Below, piece after piece: positions 41,374-61,027 of a stretch of 64,000 nt of DNA. The position numbers were made by a program, and so were the translations under genes. The stretch is taken from assembly GCA_002105175.1 (NCBI GenBank), contig MCGE01000001.1, forward strand, positions 2,604,001-2,668,000, read 5' to 3'. How positions within the stretch are numbered: the stretch's first letter is position 1; each line of letters begins with the position of its first letter. The notes below the pieces were generated by a model. It was not told the origin of the DNA, searched no databases, and saw nothing but the letters and a program-made list of their open reading frames with translations. This DNA comes from Absidia repens (lineage: Eukaryota; Mucoromycota; Mucoromycetes; Mucorales; Cunninghamellaceae).

Positions 41374-42566
41374 GAAAGCCAAAGTTCTTAAAATAATAGT
41401 CGAGATTAAATGAGATGATGATTGTAAGAAATGGGTTGAAGTAAGTAAAAGAACAAAGAAAAAAAAAAAAAAAAAGAGAAAAGAGAGAGAGAGAGACAGA
41501 GAGAAGAGAGAGAGAAAAAAAAAAGAAGGGAAAAAAATGTAGAATAAAGGGGAAAGCGGAAACCTGGTTCATAAAAATATCGAACTCCGCGTAGCTCTCC
41601 TCGCCAGTTTCAGGCTATCAATCTGGAGTTCAATTCAAAGTGCCCTGAAAGATCAAACTAAACATGACATATTTTCTCCTTCCCCTTCCCAATCCTTTAT
41701 TTCATATACAATATTCAATGGGCAAAAAATATGCTCCAGTATTTTACATTTATTTGAAGTGTCACACTACGGTACCTTTTTTCTGATATATATGTCATAA
41801 AATCAGCAAAAGTGCAGTGTCCTGTACGAAGGAAAAAATCATCCACTGACGTGGGTGAAGTAAGATCTCTGTTCGTATGTAACCATTATTTATCTTGTAG
41901 CACTCAATTTCATCATGTTGCTTTATTATAATATTATATTGCTTTTTAATACGAAGCCAATTACATACCAAGAGTTGAAAGTATTTTGGGGAAGATTGAC
42001 AGGCAGATGTGTAAAAAACGATGAATTTGCTCTTTAACTTACCATGTTTGAGTGAAAAGAAGTAGACAATTCCATATATGTGAGACTCCACTTCCCCTCC
42101 TATTTTTATATAGTGTATAGTACTATGTCCGAAGTAACTGATAGCGTGCTTTTGGTAAACCATGGTTGTGATTTGGTGGTGTAATAAAATATGATAATTA
42201 TCTATGTTTTCCTGTGTTTTATAAAACCTTGGTGTATGATACTCACCTAATGGTTATATTGAGATGCAATGCAAAATGCTTATTTTGACAGTTGATGTGC
42301 TCGGGGTGACTGCGTGTGCATGTATGTGTGTTATGAAATATTTTGCCTAATATAGATGTCAAAGTAAATTAAGCAATGACAATTACTTGCATACACTACT
42401 TGATAATGATATTGAAGGAACATTACCGGTATTTGTATATCCTGCCCTGGTTGATCAACCGAGCACAATCTATTTCATTTGGCGTGACTATTTGATGATT
42501 GCGGGGAAATGACAATCAATTTTTTCCCACGGATTGTGTGTGATTTTTTTTTTTTTTTTTTTTTGG
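41374..42566. other. Intergenic, no gene seen
   Basis: Purine-rich leader of the 40222 gene (GA tracts at 41459-41535). The minus ORF at 41795-42163 is AT-driven and lacks domain or splice support. The right end is the promoter of the MCC alpha gene. Confidence 0.5.
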
Positions 42567-42574
42567 TATAAAAT
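42567..42574 (+). promoter_or_regulatory. TATA box of the MCC alpha gene
   Basis: TATAAAAT directly follows a T tract and sits 78 bp before the ATG at 42645. Confidence 0.55.
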
Positions 42575-42644
42575 ACTTCCGCCCATTTTTTCGCTTCTTC
42601 CTTCTTACACTGCAATCCCTCTTTTTAATTCTCCCTTTTCTTGT

Positions 42645-45452
42645 ATGTTTCGTCTATTCAAAAACGTAGCGACTCCTGCTACGCGTGTCCGTACATCTTA
42701 CCAAGTACAATTCACCTGTACCAAGCTATATTATTCTTCTCAACCAGGTTAGCAAAAAGAAAAAAGAAACTCCAACAGAGAAGCTGGCCTTTGATGCTTA
42801 CTCCATTTGTCTTTTATTAGAACGAAATGCCCTCTTTGAAAAAGTATTGATTGCGAACAGGTAATTTAGCTCAGCAAAGTAGTATCCAGCGACTAACTTA
42901 ATTTCCATAATTGTAGAGGTGAAATTGCTTGCCGGGTGATGCGAACTGCCAAAACACTTGGTATCAAGACTGTGGCGGTTTACAGTGAAGCTGATGTGCA
43001 TTCTCAACATGTCAAGATGGTAAGTTTGCCAAATGATAATGGATTAGAGTACACGGAAGCTAACTACCATGGTTGCTCTTTCTTTCTTTATATAGGCCGA
43101 TGAAGCTTACTTGATTGGCCCCGCTCCATCGGCTCAAAGTTATCTGGATATGAATAAGATTCTTGATGTTGCAAGATTGACTGGTTCTCAAGTATGACAT
43201 GAAAAAAATAGAATTGAATGGGTGTATGGGTGGGTTGGTATATGAAGTAATATCTTATTCTTTTTTTCTTTTTTTTTTTTTTTTATGATATCACTGGATA
43301 GGCAATTCATCCTGGTTATGGTTTCTTATCTGAAAATGCTGACTTTGCTGACCGTGTCAAAAGCCAACAAATCGCTTTCATTGGCCCTTCTGGTGACGCT
43401 ATGCGATCCATGGGATCGAAGAGGTAAGATGAAAAGAACAACATCGTGTTATAATTTTGAGACTAACGGGTTCTAATGCATTGTTTATTGTGCTTTCTCT
43501 CTTTTTAGTGAATCCAAGTTTATTATGGAAAAGGCTGGTGTCCCTGTTGTTCCTGGCTACCATGGTGAAAATCAAGATGTTGGATTTTTGAAGGACCAAG
43601 CTCAAAAGATTGGGTACCCGGTATTGATTAAAGCGGTCAAGGGTGGCGGCGGCAAGGGTATGCGTATTGTGCGACATGCTGGTGAATTTGAAGAAATGTT
43701 GGAATCCTCTCGTCGTGAATCTATTAAATCGTTTGGGGATGATAAGGTGTTGGTAGAAAAATATCTGGAAAGACCTCGCCATGTGGAAGTCCAAGTGTTC
43801 GCCGACAAGCACGACAACGTGGTCCATCTTTTCGAACGTGATTGCTCAGTCCAACGTCGACATCAAAAGGTGATTGAAGAAGCCCCTGCGCCTGGTCTCT
43901 CTGAAGAAGTACGTGCTTTATTGGGTGCCAAAGCTGTCGCTGCTGCTCGTGCCGTGGGATATGAAAATGCTGGTACTGTGGAATTCATCATGGACAACAT
44001 TGACAAGCAATTCTACTTTATGGAAATGAACACACGACTCCAAGTGGAACATCCTGTGACGGAAATGGTGACCAATACCGACCTTGTCCACTGGCAATTT
44101 GAAGTCGCTTCTGGAAACCGTTTGTTGCTGAATCAAGATCAACTGAAACTTACGGGCCATGCCTTTGAAGCTCGTGTTTATGCTGAAAATCCATTAAAGT
44201 AAGTCAAGGAGTGTCACTGTGAGCAGGGAATTTGGATATCTCCAATATACTAGATACTGACTACTTCATTCTCGTTATTGAACATTCATAGCAATTTCCT
44301 TCCTGATACCGGCCCATTATACAGTGTGCGTACTCCTGAGACTTCTGAAGATCTGCGTCTGGAAACTGGATTCATTCAAGGCGATGACATCAGCGTACAT
44401 TATGACCCTATGATCTCAAAGCTAATTGTCCGTGGTGAAGACCGCAATGATGCTTTACGTCGATTCCGTAGGGCGTTGGAACAATACCAAGTGGTGGGTT
44501 TGACTACAAATATCGATTTTATCAAGAAGGTGGCTGAACATCCCGAATTCATCAAAGGAGAAGTGGAAACTGGATTTATTCAGGTAATTTATGAAATAAT
44601 ATCGCCCTTGCACATATTATACCAACGATCTAACTTTTTTTTTTTTTTTTTTTTTGATCTAGCAATTTGAAAACGACTTATTAAAGGCACCAGAAGCACC
44701 TAATGCTGAAACTTTGGCACTTGCAGCGACTGCTCTTCGATTACAGGAACAACAACAATTGGCATTCAACAAACACGATCCTTCCAGTCCTTGGCAAAAC
44801 GTGGGTAGCAGTTTACGACTGAACTCCTTAGAAACAACACAGACAACTGTGGAAAGTAACGGGGAATCGTATGATATTTATATGACAACTTCACCCAAAG
44901 CTGATGTCAAACACCCCAATCTGGTGGATGTGGAAATTAAGGAAAGTGGGTCCGACAAGACTATCAAGATATTTGAAGGAGTAGACAGCTATTTGGATCA
45001 AGAAGGGTTACTGGTGTCCTCATTAGATAGCAAACAAGTCAAATCCAACGTTGTATTGCACAATGAAGATGTGGTGGTCTTTGACGAGGTAAAAAAATAT
45101 ATTGTATGATATGAAAAAGAAAATGAACTGACCTGATCATTGAATTTATTTGTTTGTTTAGCATGGTCGCACAGACTTGAAGTTGCCCACACCTTTATAT
45201 GTGACTGGCGGTGCCGAAAGTGCGGGTGGTGCGGGATCTCTCAAGACACCTATGCCTTGTAAAATCTCTCAAGTGATGATCAAGCCGGGACAAAAGGTGG
45301 AAAAGGGAGCCGCTATTATTGTATTGGAAGCCATGAAGATGGAGCATGTGATTCGCTCACCTGTGGATGGTGTGATTGATCAAGTCCTTTATGCTGTTGG
45401 TGACCTGGTGGAAGAAAACAAGTCTTTGGTGATGTTTGCTGATGGCGAATAG
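42645..45452 (+). CDS. MCCC1: Methylcrotonyl-CoA carboxylase, biotin-carrying alpha subunit
   Basis: Mitochondrial enzyme of leucine breakdown. The alpha subunit carboxylates its own biotin and hands CO2 to 3-methylcrotonyl-CoA on the beta subunit. Nine exons: 42645-42747, 42821-42860, 42917-43019, 43096-43191, 43302-43423, 43509-44198, 44292-44583, 44663-45088 and 45162-45452. The first exon encodes a basic, Ser/Thr-rich targeting peptide ([20 protein letters not shown]). Biotin carboxylase domain: [33 protein letters not shown], the ATP-grasp Gly loop [30 protein letters not shown] and [13 protein letters not shown]. The biotin carboxyl carrier domain at the C-terminus has EAMKMEH with the biotinylated Lys. 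The middle region is the MCC-type BT linker, which separates it from pyruvate and acetyl-CoA carboxylases. Confidence 0.95.
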
Positions 45453-45621
45453 AATAGATTATTTTTACATTAGTTTGACTAACGTCAGTTTAGATTTTAT
45501 TATTTTTGATGAAATAAAGAAGCCTGTATAGAATTTACTTTTATTACTGATTATGAAAAAAAAAAATGGGCGAGGAAGTGTAATTTATGCATATTGTATG
45601 TATTGGCAATCATTAAGTATA
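45453..45621. other. 3' flank of the MCC alpha gene
   Basis: AATAAA at about 45514 serves as the probable polyadenylation signal. Confidence 0.5.
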
Positions 45622-45837
45622 TTAGAATGGAAGGTTATTGTCTTTGAATAAATAGGTGCCGAGGAACCGGACGGAAAACTGGAGGGAAAGGAAATGCATT
45701 GTCGAAAATATTTGGGTGTAAAAATTTACATGATACACAGGATTTGAAAAAGGGGGTCTATGATCAGGGGAAATGATGATACTGATCGTAGAGGTGATAC
45801 ACTTTTGGTTAGCATCGTTCGGGTAGTCTTCGATCAT
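45622..45837 (-). pseudogene. Short ORF with paralogous end to the 51107 gene
   Basis: A 71-residue frame (MIEDYPNDANQKCITSTISI ...) ends in FLGTYLFKDNNLPF. That end matches MLGRFMFKDNNLPL inside the membrane protein at 51107-51946, and five of the seven FKDNNLP codons differ synonymously. A TATAAAAG lies about 23 bp upstream of the ATG. It could be a remnant of a second copy of that gene; the remaining part does not align by eye. Confidence 0.3.
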
Positions 45838-46516
45838 GATTTTTTTTTGTGCTCTTTTATACATAAAAGAATGATGGGTAATTGCATGTTTGACAGAAAG
45901 AAAATTCTGTACAGTACTGTACTGTACAGTACTCTGATGTCCTATCACCGCCGTTTAACAGGTTACGTATTTCCTTAAAAGCTTATACATAGTCAAGTCC
46001 TGTCATCTTTTTTTTTTTTTTTTTTTATACATTGTGGCTAACTTGAACGTGTTAGTATTCTTTTGATGCTGATAATAGTATATAGCCAATAAAAAATCCT
46101 CATCGATGATGATCATGCAAATATGTAAAAATAATAATCAAAAAAACCACATATCCAATATGAAACATCTCAGCATGTTGTCTTTTTTAGGTCAAATGAA
46201 TTATTGCTGAGAATGTTTGTTAGAGGATATGTCGCCTAGCCTAAAAGGAAATACAAAGACTGAAAATATTGGGGTTGATGATGAGAACTTTATAATTATA
46301 AACATAATGTACTTTAAAGTTTTGTATCGGCCCGTCAAGTAAAGTATAGACGGATTATTTTAACGTTAAAGAAGCTTGATTTCGTTTCCAGAGTAAAGTG
46401 CCAAATGGACGATGGGGCCGGCAAATCCATTTTTGGAAATACACTCAGGCGGGTCCTCTTTTTATTTTGTTTACATGAAACTGTGTGATCCCCAAAACAA
46501 ATTCAGTTAATTTTGA
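45838..46516. other. Intergenic with GTAC palindromes
   Basis: Overlapping palindromes built from GTAC/TGTACA lie at 45906-45933. A T22 run is at 46008. No gene seen. Confidence 0.5.
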
Positions 46517-46538
46517 TATAAATACAGCATTATAAAAT
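46517..46538 (+). promoter_or_regulatory. Paired TATA elements of the CCHC ORF
   Basis: TATAAATA at 46517-46524 and TATAAAAT at 46531-46538 are 82 and 68 bp upstream of the ATG at 46599. Confidence 0.45.
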
Positions 46539-46598
46539 TGGTGACCTATCAGTGGTGGATTTTATCGATTTTTTTTTTCAAATAAGATAAGATTAAAA

Positions 46599-46730
46599 AT
46601 GCAATTATCATCGAATCATACTTGTTCTGGCTCCGCTCATGGATCTTCACTCTCCTCTGCTTGTTCTTATTGTGGTGCCTACAATCATATCGCCTGGAAC
46701 TGTCCCCAACGTTATCGTCCTCGTCGATAG
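46599..46730 (+). CDS. 43-residue single CCHC zinc-knuckle protein
   Basis: Intronless ORF starting MQLSSNHTCSGSAHG. It contains CSYCGAYNHIAWNC, which is an exact C-x2-C-x4-H-x4-C zinc knuckle, followed by a basic tail PQRYRPRR. Zinc knuckles bind single-stranded RNA or DNA and occur in splicing factors, Gis2/CNBP-type proteins and retrotransposon Gag. Here it stands alone, with no Gag, protease or polymerase frames nearby. Codon choice (TCT/TCC, CGT, TGT, GGT) is like that of the confirmed genes, two TATA elements precede it and AATAAA follows near 46826. It could be a domesticated Gag fragment or an orphan microprotein. The perfect motif makes a chance ORF unlikely, but expression is unproven. 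Confidence 0.5.
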   Translation: MQLSSNHTCSGSAHGSSLSSACSYCGAYNHIAWNCPQRYRPRR

Positions 46731-47975
46731 TATTTTAATTTTATTATTATTTTGATTTGTATCCAAACTATATGACTATGAACTTACTATACATGCTAAT
46801 TTTTTCTTGCACAAGCCCAATGCGATAATAAAAGGGGGGAATATGTCGGGATTTAAAAAAGTTACCAAGTGCAGTAATCCCCATTGTTCGAAAGTTTTGA
46901 ACAATTTACGATTTTTGCTCACCGAATTAGATTTTTAAAACACAAACCTACCACTTCACGCTTAATTTTTTAACCTTCGCAATATAGTGGGGCAGTATTT
47001 GAGTTTTAAATAAAATGAAAAACCATTTTTTCAGCAACCGATCCTTTGCCATGTGCTTGAGAATAGACTTTGTAGTTTCTCGTCTTCGGTACTATGATGT
47101 AATCGGGATTTGAATTGATTTTCGGTGCCTTGAGAAAGTCAGGGTTCGTAAGTTATATATCCTTTCAACCTTTCGATGCGTCCCTTACTTTTAATACTAA
47201 AGACACATTTGACGGATGATGGGGTTCATGATTATCAAATGAACCGAGGGCTCGGTCATGATCAACATTACCACCGCTTTTTCCGACACAGACACAGACA
47301 CATAAACTTTCAATATTGTTTCAAAAAAATACCTTCCCCATCAAATGAAATTGAACTAAAAAAAAAAAAATAGGTATGAAAATAACCGCTCCCCCTCATT
47401 TTTAAATTTGCGCTTCATTGCCCCTTTTGTTGTTGTATTTTTCATAATCCAAGTTTTAATATTGTAAATTCATATTTTCAATAAAGACATTTATTGACAT
47501 GCTTATATAGGCTTTGTATAAGGAAAATCTTTTCGATTTAAGTCTTGGCAAGTTTAAGGAGTGAAAGAAAACGGGCCCGCTTCCCTTTTTCTTCCTTGAC
47601 CCTGAATCATAAAATAGCCAGCTATCCAATCAAATGTCATCAAAATTAATGAACTTGCATTGATACGGTGTGTTTCGAAAAAAAGGGAGACTGAAAAAAA
47701 AAGAGCCAACAGAATTACCAGACTTTTTTCGCCTATCAATTTTCTTCCCCTTGATATTTTTTTTTATCTCTCTATTTTTACACCCCTTTATTCTTTTTTT
47801 TTTTTTTTTTTTTGTCTCTCACTTTTTTTTTTTGAATTCTTTACAGTATACTTTTCCTTTTTTTTATTTCTATTTTACATTCTTATCACATCCCCTGCCT
47901 ACTCTAAGGTGGCTTCTCTCTGAAAAAGTCGATTCTATTCAATCAGTTTATCTAAAAGTCTCACTTTTTTATTTG
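46731..47975. other. Intergenic and pyrimidine-rich leader of the Sel1 gene
   Basis: 46880-46910 holds a small inverted repeat (TTGTTC/GAACAA). The region 47755-47875 is almost all pyrimidine and reads as polyPhe. It is likely 5' UTR or promoter of the next gene. The in-frame extension upstream of ATG 47976 is not believed to be translated. Confidence 0.5.
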
Positions 47976-50104
47976 ATGACACATTCTCCTTTACCTTTCT
48001 CTCATCTTATACAAAGATCTCGTCATGTTCTTTCCAGATGGCAACCCAAACGACACTCTTCTCCCAATCTCGACATGTCACCACCTACAACTACAACTTG
48101 TTTATCAGCCACATCTAGTGTAGCATTGCCTTCATCTTACCGGTCGTCTTCCGAGTCGTCGTCTTTGTCGTCATCATCTTGTATCAATTCATCAACGGTA
48201 CTGTCCCCTGAACTTTATGAATTTGCAGCAACATCCTCTGATATCAACAAACTGGATGAAGCACGACAATTACTCACCATCGGCGATCAACATTTATTCG
48301 GTCGATATCCACAAACAACTAGACAACCTGCCCAGGCGGTCTCTTGTTATCACCAAGCGGCTTCTATGGGCTTAGCTGAAGCCATGGGCATTCTTGGCTT
48401 CTGCTACGAATTTGGCTTGGGATTGGAAAAGGATTTTGCTTTGGCTGAATACTACTATCTGGAATCTGCAAAGGATCACGATGGCCTTGGTATGGCTCGA
48501 CTGGCCTTTTTACGAAAATACGGACGTCCAAACATCAAAATCGACCGTGCTGAATCTGAAGAGTGGGCGGAACGGGTACGCCGCTATTATCCCCTTACGA
48601 CATCACCTCTTGACGCTTCTTCTTCGACCTCATCAGCAGCTATTCAGTGGATACTGGATGGTGCTTTGGCCGGTAACGATGCATCCTGTCAGTATGCTCT
48701 TGGCGTATGTTACCACGATGGCATCGGTATGTAGAACGTTTATTAGAATAGGACTTCGAGCACTATGGTATCATTTATGTACTAAGCATTTCTCACTTCT
48801 TTAATATATATATAGGTATTGAAAAGAATGAAGAGTTGGCTTTCCGGTGGTACAAGGCTAGTGCAGAACAAGGCAACGAACGTGGTCAAGGGATTCTCGG
48901 CTACTGCTATGGTGAAGGGTTTGGGGTAGCAAAAGATGAAGTGGAAGCAATGCGTTGGTACCGACTGGCTGCTCAACAAGGCGAAACGGTGGCGATCTAC
49001 AATGTGGGGTACTGTTATGAAGAAGGTATCGGCGTGGAAAAGAACGTGATGGAGGCGGTGGTTTGGTACCGCCGTTCTGCTGAACAAGGCAACGCTTTTG
49101 CTCAAAACTCTCTTGGTTATTGTTATGAAGACGGTATTGGTGTCGGGCAGGACTTTAGCCTGGCAGCCCTGTGGTACAAACGATCGGCGGAACAAGGTTA
49201 CCCATGGGCGGAATGCAATCTCGGCTACTGTTATCAAAATGGTATTGGCGTTGATAAGGATGATCGGTTGGGTGCTTACTGGTATCGCAAGGCTGCTTTG
49301 CAAGGACATGCACGGGCTCAACACAATCTGGGATTTTGCTACCAAAATGCGATTGGTGTCAATCAGGATGAAGTGGAAGCAATGCGGTGGTATCGACGAT
49401 CGGTGGAACGTGGAAATATCTTTGCTTACCACTCTTTGGGATACTGCTATCAAAATGGAATCGGTTTGCAACGAGATGAGCGGGAAGCCGTGTTTTGGTA
49501 TTATTTGTCAGCGGAACAGCATCATGCGCCAGCTCAGCTATCTCTTGGTTACTGCTACCGCAATGGAATTGGAGTTGAAAAGGATGAAAGGGAAGCGTGC
49601 AAATGGTTTAAACGGTCAGCGGAACAAGGAAATGCTTTGGCTCAAAACTCGCTCGGTTTTTGCTATGAAGAAGGACTTGGTGTGAAAAAGGACAATGCAA
49701 AGGCGGTGTACTGGTATCACAAATCTGCACGACAAGCCAATCCTTGGGCTCAATGCAACTTGGGCTTTTGTTATGCAAATGGTATTGGCACCAATCAAGA
49801 TCATTCACAGGCGGTTTTCTGGTACGAACAAGCTGCGAAACAAAACCACTCAAGGGCACTGGACAAACTAGGTGTACATCTACAACAAGGCTTGGGAATA
49901 GACAAGGATGAAATAGCGGCATTCATACTTTTCAAACGTGCTGCCGGTCAAGACCATACTGCGGCTCAATTCCATTTGGCTAACTGTTATGAAAAAGGTC
50001 TCGGATGTTCTGTTGATTTACATCAAGCTACCATCTGGTTTGAACGGGCTTCTTTAGGTATGTGTCAGAAATAGTGAAAATACGGTTATTTAGATTTCTC
50101 CTTA

Positions 50105-50152
<48 letters not shown>

Positions 50153-50258
50153 GCTGGCTGCAGAAGCTCCCACGAACGACTACGAAGTTTACTTGTACGG
50201 GTATGCCTATTATCACCAGGGTCATCACCCTCCTCGACCATGGATGAACAAGATTTGA
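47976..50258 (+). CDS. Sel1-like repeat (SLR) solenoid protein
   Basis: Exons 47976-48726, 48816-50057 and 50164-50258 encode 695 residues. A Ser-rich N-terminus (about 80 residues) is followed by at least 12 Sel1-like repeats of 36 residues: Ala-rich helix pairs with LGYCYEEGIGVEKD-type turns and WYRRSAEQGN-type second helices. Such TPR-like solenoids scaffold protein complexes; fungal examples include chitin synthase regulators (Chs4/Skt5), ER-associated Hrd3/Sel1 and Shc1. There is no CaaX end and no signal peptide, so which branch it belongs to is open. The last intron contains T42 next to the acceptor. The acceptor CTGCAG at 50163 gives EAPTNDYEVYLYGYAYYHQG and a stop at 50256-50258. The nearer AATAG acceptor would give an unrelated Ser-rich tail. 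Confidence 0.85.
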
Positions 50259-51106
50259 TATGTAGTGGATTTATTATTGGACAAAGTGCACCTGCAGCTT
50301 AAACTATGATCATCCACCTTATATAATCCCTTTTTGTTTTTTACATTACTGTTTTATTTTATATTATTACTATCTATACTTTTTAGTTTAGTTGTTACAC
50401 TCCCTCCCTTTTATATTTTTTATCGATTTGATTACCAGAGTCGACAAAAGAAAATTGTTATACCTGATATTTGTTATATTACACACTTTTTATATTTTAT
50501 ATTTTACTACCTATTTTGAAAACAATAGTTTTTCAATGATATTTATCAATAAAACTGTCAAAGCAAAAACGCTATTAGGGCATCGAATGGGTGCAAGATT
50601 AAAATTTGATAGTAGGATAGTGGAAACCTTTATATCTTATACATTCAATAAATCACTCCTGTATTCATCATAGACCACTTTTGCCTCTCTCTTTTTTTAT
50701 TTTTTTTATTTTTTGAAGTTACGTCTTTGATTTTACATTTGGACATTTGGACATTTTAAAATTTTACGACGTCTTCTTGACGACAATCACCTCAACGGCA
50801 ATTTAAAATCAAAAATGCAAGACAATTAGAAAAATCCGACACCTCACTTTTGAATTTCCGGCCTCCGACTTCTTCAGGTCCCGACATCGATTTTCAAAAT
50901 GTGCGACAAGTAACTGTGGAAATAGTACTACTGTTTGTGTGCGCTTGTATGGCTGGGTCTGGGACAGGGGCAATGTCATCTTTTTTTTCTCAAATAGGTT
51001 TGTGCGGGAAAATTTCACGTGTGGCGGTCATTTATTTCCACCAAGGTTTTTTAAAATATTATATCATTCCTTTTTATCATTTTTTACTTTATTTTTACGC
51101 TATATC
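50259..51106. other. Intergenic, no gene seen
   Basis: AT-rich with polyadenylation signals (AATAAA near 50548 and 50647). Short ORFs read Phe/Tyr/Ile-rich sequence. The right end is the promoter of the 51107 gene. Confidence 0.5.
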
Positions 51107-51946
51107 ATGACTGACTCTTCCTTGGATATGTCTAGCGCCTCCCTGATCTCATCGTCACAGCAATTGGATGACAGTCAGTACACAGAAGACAGCGGCAGTA
51201 GCATACTCTCGTCCTTGCCTTCCATTCCTTCCCTTCCACCCATCGATGTCGATACACGAGTACTGCAGCAAGACATACAATCAACCTCAACGTCATCACC
51301 TCGTTCATCGCTTTCTTCATACAATAGAGACAACAATACCCGACAAGGTTCATCATCAGTAGCTTCATTACCATCCCCACGACAAGTTTCTGCTAACGAC
51401 GACACGTCTTCGCCGTCCGATAAGACCGGTGATACCAACAAACAAAGACCACCATTACGGCAACTCATATGGGGCCATGCTCGGTCCTTCAGCTTTATGT
51501 TGGGCAGATTCATGTTCAAGGATAACAACTTGCCTCTTATTCTCAATATAATGGGACATCTTTTGGCAGCAAGGCAACTCTGGGGAAAATCAAAAAGCTC
51601 TGTGGCACGTTATACCAATATTCAACAGCAACAAGGCTCACTGTCTGGGACAGCAGCTTTGGTAGCAGATCAATTTAAAAGTATTGGCGTTCTTCACTTG
51701 TCTTTGGGATTACTAGCAGGTTTGGCATTGAAGGAACGACGACTATCAACTGAACGCACGGCTTTGTGGGTCTTATCTGTGGCAGCTTGGTCTCAATCAT
51801 TTGTACAAGGAAAGGCGTATCTACAATCTCCAACAATGTACACCTTGAAGGCGTTACAAGAATGGGGTGCCCTGAATGGAATCTTAACCGTGATTACTAC
51901 GATCGCATTACGGAACACCATGCGAAGGACTGGCCGGATTATTTAG
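51107..51946 (+). CDS. Unknown membrane protein, Ser-rich N-terminus
   Basis: Intronless gene for 279 residues. The ATG at 51107 was chosen as the first one after a non-coding leader; the frame stays open upstream but reads Phe-rich sequence. Residues 1-115 are Ser/Asp/Pro-rich and disordered (SSSQQLDDSQYTEDSGSS and similar). From residue 120 the chain is hydrophobic and well ordered: RQLIWGHARSFSFMLGRFMF, KDNNLPLILNIMGHLLAARQ, then helices around IGVLHLSLGLLAGLALKERR, TALWVLSVAAWSQSFVQGKA and WGALNGILTVITTIALRNTM. Three to four membrane helices are likely. The C-terminus is basic (RRTGRII). I do not recognise the family. A short related fragment may lie at 45622-45837. Confidence 0.65.
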   Translation: MTDSSLDMSSASLISSSQQLDDSQYTEDSGSSILSSLPSIPSLPPIDVDTRVLQQDIQSTSTSSPRSSLSSYNRDNNTRQGSSSVASLPSPRQVSANDDTSSPSDKTGDTNKQRPPLRQLIWGHARSFSFMLGRFMFKDNNLPLILNIMGHLLAARQLWGKSKSSVARYTNIQQQQGSLSGTAALVADQFKSIGVLHLSLGLLAGLALKERRLSTERTALWVLSVAAWSQSFVQGKAYLQSPTMYTLKALQEWGALNGILTVITTIALRNTMRRTGRII

Positions 51947-52429
51947 TATTGCTAGTTTTTTTTTCTTAGTGATGGTATATATTTATTTAGTTTACGTTTG
52001 CTTTAGTGAATTAGTTGGACCAGTATGTAGTTTTATTTTTCTTTTCCTTTTTTTCCCAACTGTGTTGTGAAATTGTTTTTTTAATACTTATTTTTATATT
52101 GTTACAATGCTAATAAATATTAAGTGAAGCATATCATACCGTGTGTTTATCAAATGTCTTGGGAATAGAATTGGGGTATGAAGTAGAGCTGGATGATTAT
52201 GGGACGGTTAGGATGTAAGAGTGTCTTGAGAAACAAATTGTTGTGTACTGTACAGAAGAATTATTGAATTGTGGATGTATTTGCATGCGCGCTAGGACGA
52301 CACTGGTGAAGAAATTGTTAAATTGGAAGTAAATTTAGTTGATTATAAGGTAGTATTGTGTGTCGTCCACAGCAATTTTATCGAATATACTGCTCTGATG
52401 CATTTGCTCCACCAATTTGCACTGAGCCA
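51947..52429. other. Intergenic, 3' flank
   Basis: AATAAATATT near 52112 is the probable polyadenylation signal of the 51107 gene. No gene seen. Confidence 0.5.
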
Positions 52430-52715
52430 GAGAAACGATAGATAAGTTTCAAATCCCGCACATGTGATTATTATTTTCTCCCGCTTTTTGTTTTATTTTT
52501 TTTCTTCATCATTGTGATTATATTAATCATATATTAATGCTAGGACTAGTTTAGAAGGGGTTTCAGCTCAGGGATTACAAGATGCGTGGGGAAACCCTTT
52601 CATTTTGGATTCAAGATTTTGGAACCACCAGTAGCAGGCTTTTTGAAGTCTCTTTTAGCTTAGCTTAGTGTTAGTTTATCCATAGTTTGTATCCATATCT
52701 GAATAAAATATGAAA
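52430..52715 (+). repeat. Dispersed repeat family, copy E (5' third only)
   Basis: Keeps the head (CCAGAGAAACG, TTTCAAATCCCG, ACATGTGATT), the pyrimidine tract and the core block (GGACTAGTTTAGAAGGGGTT, CAGCTCAGGGATTACAAGAT), and stops just after the first GAATAAAATATG. An (AT)n tract at 52720-52747 follows directly. Confidence 0.75.
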
Positions 52716-52716
52716 A

Positions 52717-52748
<32 letters not shown>

Positions 52749-53014
52749 CCTTTCCTATATCATCTGCGTTTCAAGTCTCAAGTCATCATATCAACGGGTA
52801 CTTTTTCCCCTTTCATACATCACACATTTGATAAATAATACGATAACTGTAGACTTTGTATTTTATTGACGTTGATTTTGAGATAATATAACGATACTAA
52901 TAAACTAATTGATCTGTATGGGAAGTTCCCAACAAGGTGTGAAAAAAAAAAATTGTAAAAAAAAAGTGTGATATATATATATTATATATATAATGACTAT
53001 ATAGAAGACCTAAA
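52716..53014. other. Intergenic, AT microsatellites
   Basis: (AT)n at 52720-52747 and TA runs at 52972-52992. Holds the 3' flank of RPB1. Confidence 0.5.
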
Positions 53015-54781
53015 CTACTTTTGTTTGTTGTTGCTGTTTGAGCCTTGAGCTTGATAAGAACTACACATCAGGGTTAGTAAAGTTCCATGGAAGGATACAA
53101 CTGACCCTTTCCTTGTTAAGATACTTACGGAGAGCTAGGGCTATAAGAGCTATGAATAATAAAGAATGTTAGTATATTGTCATCCAAAAACATAAGATGC
53201 TCATTTTACACTTACGGAGATGTTGGACTATACGAGCTATTGGTTTTCAATTATATGGTGGAAAAAGAATAAAATATTAGTCGTATGTATTTCATGCAGC
53301 ATTGTTTCTTATTTTGTAAATACGTACGGCGAGCTTGGACTATAAGACCTATACATATATAAAAAAAATACAATGAAAATAATAATCATGAGTTAGTAAC
53401 GATGTCGTATAAATATTATCTATCAAAAAAAATCATACGGAGACGAAGGGCTATAGGATCTATCCAAGGATAAGAGAAAACGTTAGTCAGGTGTATCCGC
53501 ACAACATAACCACTGACTGCCTTTGATCGAGCACTTACGGAGAGCTTGGGCTATACGATCTAGAATAAATCAAGACAATATGACGGTTTAGTCATGATAG
53601 ACAATACACATGTATGTTATATACGTTTCCGATACTTACGGAGAGCTTGGACTATAGGAACTATAAATAGTGAAATAAATGGTAAGTTAAATTTGAGTTC
53701 GCAGACAGGTTTCAATGGCGATTGTATTTTTTAAGGGCAAAACTTACGGTGATGAAGGGCTGTATGATCTGAAAAGTGTAGAAGTGTTAAAAAACAGTTA
53801 GTCAGTTCGCAGTCTTTTCGACGTTGCTGCTCTTCAAATGGTTAATTCTTACGGCGACGATGGGCTATATGATCTATAAATATAAGGAAAAGAAGTAATG
53901 AGTACCGGGACTGCACACATATTTGCATATTCTAATCGCTATAATTTATACTTACGGCGAGCTTGGGCTATAAGAACTATCAAAACGAATAATATTATTG
54001 TTTGCGAATGAGTCAACTGGTTTCAATAAACATTCATCACTAATTATACTTACGGTGAGCTTGGGCTATAAGACCTGTAAAAATAAAAATAAAACGGTGA
54101 GTCAGTCCATTGATTACAATTTGACAACTTTTTATGGATACTAACGGAGAGCTTGGACTATACGATCTGTAACATGGAAATTAAACAATGAGTTCATTGA
54201 TTACATTTGCCGCTTTTTTTATGGATACTTACGGTGAGCTTGGACTATAAGATCTATTTATGTAAATAAAAATGCCAAAAGAGTAATTCAGCAAGCTATG
54301 TAAGCTTTGGTTCTTCTTTTTTCTTTAAATGCTTACGGAGATGATGGGCTATATGAACTACATAAATAAAACGAAGATCAGTTTATCAAATCATACCATA
54401 ACAGCTTGCAGTATTGATCCAATTTTTTTTCATAATACTTACGGCGAGCTAGGACTGTACGAACTACAAATGTAAAATAAAAATGCAGTCAGTTAGTAAA
54501 TCATTCATTTTGAATCACCAGAAGTGTTTTTTTTTGTGTATGTACGGTGATGATGGGCTATAAGATCTATAGCAATTGCAAATAAAACGTTTTCCAAGTT
54601 AATAATTACATTGCATTGCTGTTCTTTTGTTTTCTGTTTGGACTTACGGAGAGCTAGGACTGTAAGATCTGTATATTTTAATAACGAAAACAAAGAAAAG
54701 TTAATATTGGCCTTCGTAACATAAAACACTAAATATTTGTTATGCAAAACACTTACGGTGATGACGGGCTATACGATCTAA

Positions 54782-54817
<36 letters not shown>

Positions 54818-57215
54818 GTCAATTGATGCCCAGCACTCTTTTGCTCATATAAAAAAAACCCTCAACTTACGGACTACTAGGGCTATAACCCGGCGACGCT
54901 GCAAATGGAGAGGAAGGTGAATAGCCAGGGCTTGATGCATATGGGCTGAGATCCGATCGCCAAGGACTGGCTCCAATAGTTGCACCTACAGCACCAGAAT
55001 TACCCATTGGCGAGAACATAGGCTCTGAAGGGGTCGAAGGTGCGGAGAAGTCAACCCAGTCAGGTGAGCGAGTGTCATAAGGGGTCGCCATGCTGGGCGT
55101 CATGAATCCAGGTCCAGGAGTGGCAAAACCAGCAACATCACCGGGAACACCATTTGGCATAAGATGATGGCGTTGGTTTTCAGGCACTGATTTGAGCATT
55201 TCTTCATCAAGAATCACATCGAATTCACCTGTACCCAAAGGAGCCATTTGACCAAGCATGATATTTTCTGCAACACCTCGACAATCATCCAATTCACCAA
55301 CAGCAGCAGCCTCCATGAGAATTTCAACAGTTTCTTCAAAGGAACACCGCATCAGGGCACCCGTTTCCGCACGATTGATACCATGTCGAGTAATAGCCAT
55401 AAGGTGACCACGATTCGTCATCACATCACACAGAAGAGCCAAGTGGCGGTAATTGACGTAAGACCCATCGAATTCAATCACATTTCGAAGTTCCTTGAGT
55501 AACGCCTTGCGAGTAGCTTCAATACCCAAAACTTCCATGATTTCCGTAGTGTTGTTGGAATATGTTCGACGTTCATCCACACCATGTTGACACATAACTT
55601 GTTGTAAATTAATACCATCTGTGTCGAGACCCCATTCAGTTGTTTGTTCAAATTTGCCCTGAGAGTTGAGAATGGTATCCTTGCGTTCCACAATATAGAC
55701 CTTTTGAATTCTTGGTATACCACGGAGATTAATAGAGCTAAGCATGCTTGATTCCAGTTTTCGTAAAAAGGTGTCTTCTTCGGTTCTTGTATCTTCATCG
55801 TCCATATCTTTTTCTTCGCTTTCATCCGACATAACTCTGCATCGAATAATGAGCTTTTCCGAATTTTCATCACTGCCGATAACGTGAAGATCGTTTTTGA
55901 ATTCGTCCGAGATTTTTTGTACCACTTCAGTAATGTTGAGGCGTTTGTCGATCATCATACCACGATTGAGTTCAATACGAAGAAGCCAAGGTGAGACACG
56001 AGTAACCACAGGTGAGTTGTCATCTTCCAATTGATAGTACGTATCCACAAAGTCGGCGTCTTCTTCAATGATCGTAGAGCGAGGATCAGGATCATAGTAA
56101 ATTTCAGAAGCAGAGGTCACCTTTTGAAGGGTGGTGTGTTCCAAATGGACTTGTACTTCCTTGGCGAGTTCAATGTTACGAGAACGTTCGGCATCCAACC
56201 ATACTTCCAAACGCGGTGTTTTGATATTTTTGGCGACGTTGATAATTTCTTTCAAACGAGGGACACCAAGGGTAACATTTTTACTAGACACACCAGCATA
56301 ATGGAAAGTATTCAAAGTCATTTGAGTAGCAGGTTCACCAATAGATTGAGCAGCAATTGTTCCCACCATTTCACCAGGAGCTACGACTGATGTCAAAAAG
56401 CGAGATTCGACTTCTCCAAGAACCCTAAAAGGAAAAAAAAATATGTATGTAAGTATCATGATTAATATTTAGCAATGGCAGTATGTTGTCCCTTACCATT
56501 CGAAAGCTTGAGAGCTGAGATGGAATTCTTCAACAACACGTTTAACAGCAAAGGTAGACCGCAAGAGCATTTGGAAGAGAAGAGTTGCATTTCGTTGTGT
56601 TTCCGCAGATATTTTATCAGAACCACGCACTACCACCAAGCGTTCCGCAAGAGAAGAGATACCATCAACAATTTGGAGAGGGTGTACATCTGAGGCTTTT
56701 CGGGGATCGATATGGAAGATTTGTTGAGCGTTGGTAATGAGCCGTTGAAGATTGACAGGTAAAGGCCATTTGTCATCACCTTGCTTGAATATAAATCGTC
56801 GCATAATATCACGGTCTTCCTGAAGCTGCAAAAACTCTTGATCCAAATATTGTTGAGCCGTTTCATTACCGTCGATATCCTTAAGTACATCATATCCTAA
56901 AGCACCTTTGCGGAAGCCGCCGTCAGCCAAATCAACACGGTAACGTTCTTCAAATTGCTTGTCAGATGATCGAAGGGGTACCAATTTTTGTTTTTCGACA
57001 GAGCAACCATCCATGCCATCTTCACCATAACAGAATTCAATAATATCACCCAGGGAGTTTCGCACAGTGCCATCGTACTTGACCATGACATCTTCCAAAG
57101 CTTTAACGAGACGACGTTGAATATAACCTGTTTCGGCAGTCTTGACAGCAGTATCAATCAGACCTATTTTTTGGGAAAGAAGACATTTTTAATCCCGCTA
57201 CCATGTACATATATA

Positions 57216-57250
<35 letters not shown>

Positions 57251-60223
57251 TAGTTTGCTTACCTTCACGACCACCCATAGCGTGGAAGAAAAATTCCGTT
57301 GGTGTTAACCCACGAAGATAGGAGTTTTCAACAAAGCCACGACTTTCAGGACTGTGATCATCCTTGGAGAAATGAGGCAGGGTACGCAATTTGAAGCCAT
57401 ATGGAATCCGTTTACCTTCGACGTTTTGTTGACCCACACATGCAGACATTTGAGAGATATTGATAAAGGACCCCTTGGAACCAGCCATCACCATTTGTTT
57501 CACATTGTTATCAATCTTCAAATTGGTTTGGGCAAGCTTACCAGCGTCGTCACGAGCCTTGTTGAGTGTTTGATTCACCTTGGCTTCAAAAGATTCACGG
57601 AGGGTCATACCAGGTTGGATTTCTAGTTTGTCTTGCTGAGCAGTGTTGATAATTTCTTGCACCCTCTGTTTCGCCTGAGCAATAATGTTGGTGATTGTGG
57701 CCATGGTAGGCTTGTCGGCTATAGTGTCACCGATACCAATACTAAAGCCATTTTGCAATAACCAATAATTGACCACCTGTTGTGTTCCCGTCAAGAAGTT
57801 CTTCGCAGCCTCCGATCCGAGTTCATTGACAATCGTGTGAATCAGGCCGCCACCAGCAGTACCCACTGTTTTCTTGCAAACAATACCACATACAAGTTCA
57901 CCGTTTTCGATAATCACCCGACTGTCGCCAGGAGAGATATAAGTGGTTTCATCATCCGGATGACTGAAGTAAAATGTTTGACAGTTGATACCTTTTGGAA
58001 TGACCATAGATAAAATTTGTTTCCCAGTCCACATTGGTTTTGGCTTGAGAATAGCAGGAGGAGGAATAAAACCATCCCAGTCAGGCACCCACATCACAAT
58101 GTTCATCACCAAATCCTTTTCCAAGAAGAGGTCCCGCATAGTAAACTTTCGGATCCCAGCCAATGTATCTTGTACAATCCCCATGACCGGTTTGTTTGAT
58201 TGAGGCGAAACAATTTGTTTAGGCACCATACAAATTTCTGTGATTTCAGCACGGGTTTCCAAAGATTGAGGAACATGAAGATTCATTTCATCACCATCGA
58301 AGTCAGCATTATAAGGAGAAGTCACTGACAAGTTCAGACGGAAGGTGGAGTAAGGCATGACACGAATACGATGACCCATCATAGACATTTTGTGAAGAGA
58401 AGGTTGCCGGTTGAAGATCACCACATCACCATCCACGATATGACGTTCCACACGATAACCCAACTGAAGAGGAATTTCACCAGCACGTTTGCGATACCTC
58501 AAATCGATACGTTCACCATTATCACGAATAACATACTTCGCACCAGGGTGTTCCAAGGGTCCATTTCGCACCAACGCTTGAAGTTTGTCAATGTTGTATG
58601 AAGTGACGATTTCAGGATAGGTAAGATTCCGAGCAATGCTACGAGGGACACCCACTTCATCCAAACTAAGATTTGGGTCACCAGTAATAACGGTACGAGC
58701 AGAGAAATCCACACGTTTGCCCATCAGATTGCCACGAAGACGACCTTCTTTTCCCTTTAATCTTGCCCGAATAGATTTCAACTAAAATATAATAAAGACA
58801 AAAATGAGTCAGGTGTAAATTCACCTTAATAAAGCAAAAAATAAAATAAAAGACTACTTACAGGTCTTCCAGATTTCTGCAAAGCTTGAGGCTGTCCCGC
58901 AATATCATTATCCATATATGTTGCAATATGGAACTAATAAATAAATATAGTTGATATTTAATATTATTAGTATTTCCGTGAAGTCCCTTTCATATCATAA
59001 TGTAAAAAGTGCTCTTTACCTGTAACAATTGTTCAAATTCCTGGACCACATGGACAGGCGCACCTTCAGATTCACAGCGTCGCACATTAGCGTTGGCTTT
59101 TAAGACATCAGAGAGTTTATGAGTCAAATCATCTTCACCACGACTGGTACCATCCATTTGAATACTTGGGCGGACTTGTGGAGGGGGCACAGGCAAAATT
59201 GTGGTAATCATCCATTCAGGGCGAGCGTATTCTTCAGAAAGACCCATGTCGCGGATATCTTGATCAGTGATGTTTTTGAGGATTTGGAGCACCTTACCAG
59301 CAGTAAGAAGAGTTTTCCCATCATTGCCGGAGTCCTATAGAGAATGCGCGGTGAGCTACATTGCGTACATGTCCCAATGATTAAATCCTAGTTACTTACA
59401 TCATTTGCACTAGCCTTGAAAAGAGCATATAGTTTCAAACCATCTTTCCGAATAAGGGGCTGTTTGTTCCCACATCCACCATGAGGATTTTTACGAGTTT
59501 CATCCAAGTCGTCCTCCAAGCCATTGTCGTCATTATCACCACCTTCACACACCATTTTCCCTTTTGCTAGTTCCCAGACGGCTTTCATTCTTGTTTTTTG
59601 GTCTCGAATTTTCCGTGCACGTACAAATCGAGGATTTGTCTATTGACATTTAAAATCAAGTTAATAAATTATACATGATTGATATATACCGCATTATTCT
59701 TTGTCTACTTACATCGTCAATCTTGAGTTTCGAGCAGTGGAAGCAAACACATTCGAGAATTTTCTTTACCTTGGTCAAAAAGCCTAAAATAAAATTTAGA
59801 GGATTGCCGTAAGGATCAAATCAAAAATCTAATAAAAATTGAATCATGCTATTCTGCTATACCTATATGATAAACTGGCTTGGCAAGATCAATATGACCA
59901 AAGTGACCCGGACATTCTGCCATTCCTTCACCACATGTTTGACATTTGTAATTTCGATCGATGGTACCCATGCGAGGATCCAGTAAGCCACACGCTCTTG
60001 GTTTTTGGGAGCCTTCGTCATATAATTCAGGAAACTCGATCTTCGCCACAGACATTGCTTTCTATAAAACAGCATATATATAATGAGTCATTAAGATGTT
60101 CATATCTTTTCATTTTATTGGGCTAATAAGACGTACGATTTCATCGGGTGAGAGAATGCCGAATTGGACAGCATCAACACGGCGCAAAGGTGCAGATGAA
60201 AAGGCGAAAGGATGTCCGTTCAT
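53015..60223 (-). CDS. RPB1: RNA polymerase II largest subunit
   Basis: Catalytic subunit of nuclear RNA polymerase II. There are 27 coding exons: 60223-60137, 60061-59863, 59783-59713, 59639-59400, 59334-59020, 58933-58862, 58781-57263, 57163-56497, 56424-54871, then 17 exons of 21 nt (54777 down to 53129) and 53060-53015. The product is about 1708 residues. Landmarks: the N-terminal zinc clamp [17 protein letters not shown] and [18 protein letters not shown], the catalytic Mg-binding [10 protein letters not shown], the bridge helix region [20 protein letters not shown], the trigger-loop region [20 protein letters not shown], and a C-terminal domain of SYSPSSP heptads ending [14 protein letters not shown]. 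All joins keep frame and use GT..AG. The core is conventional; the exon structure of the C-terminal domain is not. A (GT)n tract sits in the intron at 57218-57249. Confidence 0.97.
53129..54777 (-). repeat. RPB1: RPB1 CTD array: 17 microexons of 21 nt, one heptad each
   Basis: Exons, read in gene order: 54777-54757, 54668-54648, 54566-54546, 54463-54443, 54357-54337, 54253-54233, 54166-54146, 54074-54054, 53976-53956, 53873-53853, 53768-53748, 53660-53640, 53559-53539, 53459-53439, 53348-53328, 53236-53216 and 53149-53129. Each is exactly 21 nt and reads N-TCN-TAY-AGY-CCN-WSN-TCN-CC, that is S-Y-S-P-S-S-P with the final Pro codon split 2+1 across the next intron. Introns are 66-93 nt, all phase 2. 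Most donors are GTAAG; exceptions are GTACA, GTTAG, GTATGA and GTACGTA. Acceptors are TAG or CAG. Exon 53236-53216 encodes SYSPTSP, the only one with Thr at position 4. Confidence 0.95.
57218..57249 (+). repeat. GT dinucleotide microsatellite in RPB1 intron 7
   Basis: About 16 GT units inside the intron 57164-57262. On the sense strand this is a CA tract near the donor, a type of tract that can affect splicing in other eukaryotes. Confidence 0.85.
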
Positions 60224-61027
60224 CTTGGTGAATAAGTTGTTGTTCGATAATAAATAGTTGTATTAAAGATTGTATGATTGTTGTTGTGATGGCGATAGTT
60301 TTTTTTGTTATTATTGTTTTTTGTTGCTTTTTTTTGTGTGTGTGTTTTCAGGTGTATAATCGATACGATATAAACGATAAGGTCGAGACTAGTACAAGAT
60401 GTTGGATACTTTGATCAAAAGGACACTAAAGAAGCTTTGAAAAAAGTAGACAAACAATCTGAACAAACTAACGAAAAAAGAAAGAAAAAAATTGAAGCCG
60501 CAGCGTGCCTTTCAAATAAAAAACACAAAAACACATGACGTGGTATTTTCAAACTCCGTCATGATCGTTACCGTTAACATATACAATACTGCATCGCATG
60601 AGCGAATAGATATACAATACAAGTTATACTAGATTTTGTATTATATTGAACATTATATTAATATATCAATTGATCTGAGGGAGATATATCATACTCCACC
60701 TAAATTCATGGCATTATCCTAAGCATACGGTGAGGAGGCTACATAGCATCTCGTTCACTATACTGTATTGCTCAATTGAACTCTGTCACTTTAGGCATTT
60801 ATTTAATAGAATTGCATGTCATACTATAATAAACTTTATATATGTTATGGCCATAAGCTATAAAACTCGGTCAGTAATGAAAGTTTGTTAATGCAGGTTT
60901 ACTGCCTTCCTTTTTTGACATCCGCAAGTCACTTTTTTTTTTTTTTTTTGGACAGCTCAGCTGGATACAAAAAAATTTGGCTCTTCTTTTTTTTTTTTTT
61001 TTTTTTTTCAGAAATAAATCAACAAAC
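60224..61027. promoter_or_regulatory. Divergent promoter region, RPB1 and ELP1
   Basis: 804 bp between the RPB1 and ELP1 start codons. It contains T-rich leaders on both sides and no ORF of note. Short T/C tracts lie right before the ELP1 ATG (60930-61008). No specific factor sites were recognised. Confidence 0.45.

Follow-up and report, generated by a model that had tools for sequence, protein, structure and literature searches.

The C-terminal domain of RPB1 in Absidia repens appears to be encoded largely one heptad per exon by an array of 21-nt exons

We found that the C-terminal domain (CTD) of RPB1 in Absidia repens appears to be encoded largely by 17 consecutive exons of exactly 21 nt, each carrying a single heptad, and that a second, diverged RPB1 gene in the same genome (copy B) has the same layout. 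The CTD links transcription with splicing, and much study has gone into its length and the identity of its repeats; in model fungi, animals, and plants, it generally lies within a single large exon or a few of them. Very probably, the CTD described here comes from an array of phase 2-2 microexons that grew by duplication of its units and is spliced by intron definition. The first gene (copy A) lies in the 64-kb stretch of DNA that was analyzed (hereafter, the window), and its relevant parts, in order of transcription, are as follows.

53015-60223, minus strand: coding span of RPB1 copy A, from the ATG at 60223, with 27 exons encoding 1708 aa
54871-56424, minus strand: exon 9, the last large exon, with a phase-2 end (CC/GTAAGT)
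54778-54870, minus strand: intron 9, the first array intron, GTAAGT, in-frame TAA if retained
53129-54777, minus strand: microexon array of the CTD, made up of 17 21-nt exons and the 16 introns between them, one heptad per exon
53216-53236, minus strand: array exon 16, the sole unit with Thr4 (SYSPTSP)
53061-53128, minus strand: intron 26, the last array intron, GTAAGT, in-frame TAA if retained
53015-53060, minus strand: terminal exon, with a unit-like start (N TCN TAY), then a 12-residue tail and the stop

Copy A is a genuine, constrained RPB1 gene with both Pol II core domains and tandem CTD heptads. In the gene model, the spliced frame is open from the ATG at 60223 through the stop; if unspliced, the frame hits a stop right after exon 9. 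Pfam RNA_pol_Rpb1 domains 2, 3, and 4 were found on exon 7 and domains 5 and 7 on exon 9, all above cut-off, and the CTD matched the Pfam C-terminal repeat PF05001 (36.0 bits; cut-off, 20.3). Among the best 120 of 7977 scored proteins, the closest were from Chlamydoabsidia padenii (97% identity over 96%) and Halteromyces radiatus (95%), both of genera near Absidia (the query had one heptad in excess, which is not expected to alter the ranking); many of the top matches carry the source names RPB1 or rpo21. A CA microsatellite is present in intron 7 of this gene (57262-57164) and missing from intron 7 of copy B.

An earlier note on this DNA had reported 17 consecutive 21-nt exons, and we found them at the boundaries it gave (54777-53129, minus strand); the single frame it had traced from the exon ending at 54871 to the terminal exon at 53060-53015 is likewise borne out, since the spliced frame is open and encodes 1708 aa. 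Its statement that every exon encodes S-Y-S-P-S-S-P needs correcting in one place: SYSPSSP is encoded by 16/17 units, and the exon at 53236-53216 (1/17) encodes SYSPTSP. Its central observation, that protein repeat and exon repeat coincide, stands, with one heptad per exon and the same layout kept in the diverged paralogue. Exon 9 of copy A ends in two heptads with FAASP between them, which together with the 17 microexons gives a CTD of 19 heptads. The units follow the codon pattern N TCN TAY AGY CCN (TCN, AGY or ACA) TCN CC, and each array intron splits the codon of Pro6 as CC/N. Every unit is symmetrical (21 nt, phase 2-2), so that any subset of units keeps the frame and one skipped unit would remove one heptad.

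Thr at position 4 has nearly disappeared from this CTD, occurring in 1/19 heptads of copy A and in 0/17 array heptads of copy B; among the matches listed, the Mucor, Circinella, Phycomyces, Lichtheimia, and Rhizopus proteins have it in most heptads. The Halteromyces radiatus protein likewise has Thr in its last-but-one full heptad.

A strict 21-nt heptad pattern, which excludes the SYSPTSP exon (a relaxed pattern includes it), matched 16 times in the window, always inside the array. When the heptad was combined with a 5' splice site, 15 matches were obtained in the 47.4-Mb genome (8 in copy A, 7 in copy B), compared with 0 for the reversed control. Because the heptad-pattern matches are confined to the RPB1 arrays and the reversed control gave none, the array is not a chance pattern. 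As expected, the combined pattern had 0 matches in prokaryote and virus contig collections. Exons of 21 nt showed no genome-wide excess over the reversed control when searched as TAG + 21 bases + GTAAGT (30 places; 355 matches vs 812 in the control), and among the first 100 of the 355 places, the RPB1 array (8 matches) was the only cluster of more than two.

All 18 introns that touch the copy A array are GT-AG introns in phase 2, and their lengths agree with the 66-93 nt given in the earlier note; they fall within the range of the other eight introns of the gene (65-99 nt). Two non-consensus 5' sites are the same in both copies, namely those after unit 3 (GTACAT) and unit 14 (GTATGA). Retention of an array intron would bring a TAA immediately after Pro6 in 14/18 cases in copy A and 15/18 in copy B, but such a stop is automatic at a phase-2 GTAA site and is by itself no evidence of design or regulation. 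Branch-like motifs (CTRAY 8-55 nt from the intron 3' end, with 500 shuffles as control) occurred in 9/18 array introns of copy A (shuffled mean, 3.4) and 11/18 of copy B (shuffled mean, 3.5); the largest shuffled count was 9 for each copy, which copy A equals but does not exceed. The core introns had no clear excess of CTRAY (2/8 in A and 3/8 in B; shuffled means, 1.6 and 1.2).

Intron 8 (56496-56425), which lies outside the array, is the best-conserved RPB1 intron between the paralogues (62/70 aligned bases, z 10.0) even though silent sites stand at a dS of ~0.6; it may hold an element with a regulatory or RNA role, or it may have undergone conversion. An Rfam scan of 52000-61000 returned three matches (E up to 1), all under their gathering scores and none at intron 8.

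Copy B lies on contig C67 of the same genome assembly (47.4 Mb, 79 contigs) and also has 17 heptad exons of 21 nt, so that in either copy, as read from the sequence, exons of 30 nt or less form a consecutive run of 17, each of 21 nt. Its array introns measure 66-116 nt. The two genes belong to a collinear block in opposite orientation (window 42500-60300 vs C67:1234800-1254600). A search of the genome with the exon 9 protein recovered the two RPB1 copies at 100 and 99% identity and six weaker matches at 30-52%, which we interpret as subunits of Pol I and Pol III. An Rpb2 family search gave two loci of near-equal score (459.5 and 458.8 bits), presumably duplicate RPB2 genes, and two more of lower score. 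The RPB1 block and the paired RPB2-type loci together suggest an old segmental or whole-genome duplication.

The copies have the same residue at 1690 of 1709 codon positions in the copy A frame (the stop is counted, and three gapped codons are scored as unlike), with a dN of 0.006 and a dS of 0.604 (dN/dS ~0.01). The array itself differs at the protein level in unit 16 only, where copy A has Thr and copy B has Ser. The dS was 1.36 in the CTD, on 91 sites only, vs 0.56 in the core, a difference to be expected if some of the paired units are not strictly orthologous; the CTD dN of 0.022 is partly owing to switches between TCN and AGY in units 6 and 7. Both copies have an intron at each of the 18 array places and each of the eight core places, and most of these introns have no detectable similarity between A and B, the exceptions by z being introns 8 (10.0), 12 (4.4), and 6 (3.4). 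As most introns have lost their similarity while the exons correspond by position, we regard the array as old and constrained. In exon 5 of copy B, one base is missing beside a C run relative to copy A (L011 2753-3067, 0-based start), which reflects either an error in the consensus or a recent frameshift that would disable an otherwise strongly constrained gene.

The units of the two copies correspond in register: paired by position, they differ at 63 bases, whereas 100,000 random pairings gave a mean of 90.4 (p = 1e-5); of the seven offsets tried, register 0 fitted best. The codon class of Ser4 (TCN or AGY, which are two changes apart, with ACA grouped with TCN) agrees at 15/17 A/B positions (p = 0.0018). 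The mismatches are units 6 and 7, which belong to the following feature of copy A.

54075-54253, minus strand: array units 6 and 7 with the introns that follow them (15 and 16), a recent exon-plus-intron duplication

Introns A15 and A16 are alike at z 8.8, the top value among 153 copy A pairs (55/64 aligned bases over 73 columns). The neighboring pairs A14/A15 and A16/A17 reach 49/64 and 47/67 aligned bases, and we preferred the z-score to such percentages because gaps inflate them. In copy B, units 5 and 6 are identical neighboring exons, and, judging by their sequence, they appear to account for the longest exact array repeat of that copy (33 bp). The similarity of A15 and A16 and the identity of the B5 and B6 exons indicate that exon-plus-intron units do duplicate; unit duplication notwithstanding, both copies hold 17 units. 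The other array introns are barely alike (mean pairwise z 1.02 in A and 0.45 in B), as are array introns at different positions between copies (mean z 0.44), and this low mutual similarity makes the early duplication steps unreadable from the introns.

All 34 units have AGY at Ser2 and TCN both at Ser5 and at the Ser before Tyr; by contrast, of the 98 Ser codons in copy A exons 1-9, only 23 are AGY. Taken with the identical intron positions and the visible duplication, these uniform Ser codons favor unit duplication over 18 insertions. The codon uniformity may instead reflect heptad duplication before intron gain or a splicing constraint on the exons.

We screened 240 proteins related to RPB1 (the best 120 of 7977 scored and the best 120 of 1528 with E <= 0.001), and 6 of the 240, all from close relatives, end exactly at Pro6 of a heptad. 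The first search contributed 3/120 (two Chlamydoabsidia padenii and one Hesseltinella vesiculosa), and the second added one from Cunninghamella echinulata and two from short JGI contigs, which are presumably metagenomic. The two JGI-contig proteins (97% and 96% identity) stop exactly at the end point of exon 9. In the first list these proteins hold ranks 1, 9, and 19, and in the second, ranks 1-3. Among the six, P0019 and P0123 are marked as partial in their source records; this pair comprises the Cunninghamella protein and one of those from Chlamydoabsidia. Protein records do not indicate whether a stop codon comes next. Protein ends at Pro6 are what is expected when an intron at a phase-2 GTAA site is read as coding. 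Judged indirectly, from several predicted proteins that end where an array intron would begin, the one-heptad-per-exon layout is probably common to nearby genera. The architecture also suggests that CTDs in this group may be cut short by automatic annotation. Two other close relatives lack such an end, namely Gongronella butleri and Halteromyces radiatus, the latter protein being complete and tailed. A non-heptad tail closes the proteins from Mucor, Circinella, Phycomyces, and Umbelopsis, and the one from Rhizopus stops one residue past a Pro6, ends from which their exon structure does not follow with certainty.

The protein is a known one and the exon array is of a known type, whereas we found their combination and its regularity nowhere described. 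A search of full-text literature on the CTD, RPB1, microexons, and repeat instability, in which most subscription papers fall outside, gave no description of one heptad per exon; this result rests on the titles and abstract openings of the best matches and is weak as evidence of novelty. In fibrillar collagen genes, 54-bp exons hold six Gly-X-Y triplets each and are thought to be the product of unit duplication. There, as here, the exon unit corresponds to the protein repeat, but collagen exons are longer than microexons and are not single-heptad units. The nearest kind of gene structure is that of the Schistosoma micro-exon genes (MEGs), which also have many very short exons in series and whose symmetrical exons allow in-frame skipping. 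Their exons are 3-81 bp, their introns are up to 5 kb, and their products are secreted, according to an excerpt of PMC10526429, whereas every unit here is 21 nt, the copy A introns are 66-93 nt, and the gene encodes a core enzyme. In Trichoderma virens, Xlr2 has a single regulated microexon, and the excerpted text of that 2024 paper (PMC11121469) describes functional microexons as undescribed in filamentous fungi and experimentally tested only in Schizosaccharomyces pombe. Absidia repens likewise has microexons in a filamentous fungus, but as an array instead of a single regulated one. The intron/exon passages of PMC9451162 concern introns in another gene, and PMC4362643 is free of such words.

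Compared with the CTDs of other fungi, the protein itself is familiar: Mucor, Circinella, Phycomyces, and Rhizopus RPB1 have the same tandem heptads (27-28 counted in P0003, P0004, P0005, and P0008), and the A. repens CTD differs in its single-heptad exons and in having Ser for Thr at position 4 in nearly all heptads. In Saccharomyces cerevisiae, according to an excerpt of PMC4882425, 24-26 CTD repeats are found across 36 isolates although the CTD DNA rearranges, and the CTD coding DNA contains a G-quadruplex-like structure. As in yeast, units of the A. repens array duplicate, yet the count is held at 17 in both copies.

In the explanation that we favor, the array would have expanded through tandem duplication of an exon-plus-intron unit of ~90-110 bp and not through separate intron insertions. 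A length of 21 nt is below that for ordinary exon definition; the spliceosome would take out the short introns by intron definition and would thereby build the 19-heptad CTD. The benefit of the introns, if any, may be that they interrupt what would otherwise be a coding minisatellite of 21 bp, making slippage and recombination slower. Once spliced, the CTD forms a tandem repeat with a 21-bp period (16.4 copies in A, 15.7 in B), and at the threshold that detects it, no 21-bp repeat was found in the genomic array DNA. Starts of two-tetrad G4 motifs, loosely defined, numbered 43 in spliced vs 1 in genomic DNA for copy A and 48 vs 7 for copy B, part of the drop being expected from spacing alone. 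Conversely, the longest exact repeats are 19 bp (A) and 33 bp (B) in genomic DNA and 17 and 21 bp in spliced DNA, and the persistence of the 19- and 33-bp repeats in the genomic array weakens the case for stabilization. That the introns stabilize the coding repeat against slippage and recombination is therefore a tentative proposal, in which we place rather less than even trust; we rate it, with similar reserve, as the likeliest among the possible intron benefits, the absence of any benefit being about as likely.

The same architecture and origin could also have arisen with neutral introns, one intron-flanked heptad having been amplified by CTD turnover and having replaced the ancestral CTD, and we give this a substantial chance, somewhat short of even. 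Given the unit duplication in copy A and the difference in type of units 6 and 7 between the copies, turnover needs no selection on introns, and CTD DNA of yeast rearranges readily in the excerpt of PMC4882425. Introns are kept at 18/18 places in both copies at a dS of ~0.6, although losing one costs no protein, which argues against neutrality; however, the eight core introns are likewise kept in both copies, so that retention is not special to the array. Another idea is that exon skipping or intron retention varies the length of the tail, or that RPB1 output drops steeply when splicing is impaired, as a feedback loop between Pol II and the spliceosome. The symmetrical units, any subset of which is in frame, the immediate TAA upon retention of most array introns, and the shared non-consensus 5' sites after units 3 and 14 are consistent with such a role, and human cells lacking the splicing factor XAB2 show intron retention in POLR2A, as given in an excerpt of PMC6735682. 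Nevertheless, the stop after a phase-2 GTAA is automatic and no sign of design, and strong 5' sites at most introns point to constitutive inclusion. We consider such a length control unlikely, and it is similarly improbable that the tail is gated by splicing, with CTD length or the amount of full-length RPB1 reporting splicing capacity.

Introner-like insertions, one per heptad, into an intron-free CTD at a shared proto-splice site would be in line with the lack of any detectable relationship among most of the array introns. In a test for a common element, the array introns were near background save A15/A16, although old introner copies could be diverged beyond recognition. The identical codon position of 18/18 introns and the unit duplication revealed by the A15/A16 introns and the identical B5/B6 exons argue against insertion, which we regard as quite improbable. 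The 1-base deletion in exon 5 of copy B might hint at a pseudogene or an assembly artefact, but the copy A frame is fully open, A/B dN/dS is ~0.01, the array occurs at two loci, each on its own contig, and the predicted splice point is where related proteins stop; we give this reading hardly any credence.

In the RPB1 array, the protein repeat, the exon, and the evolutionary unit are the same object. A run of 18 consecutive splicing successes would be needed to build a CTD that itself helps direct splicing. If the tail were indeed gated by splicing, a feedback loop would be closed inside the polymerase gene, since the CTD promotes splicing. The array offers a natural setting in which to study what keeps the length of the CTD constant, how splicing handles microexons when exon definition is absent, and whether Pol II is able to monitor splicing via its own gene.

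Elsewhere in the window, frames at 43477-45446 (plus strand) have carbamoyl-phosphate-synthase-type ATP-binding and biotinyl domains and probably represent a biotin-dependent carboxylase. Nearer to RPB1, at 47664-50068 (plus strand), are Sel1-repeat frames, one with 12 stretches, which are matched in the duplicate block.
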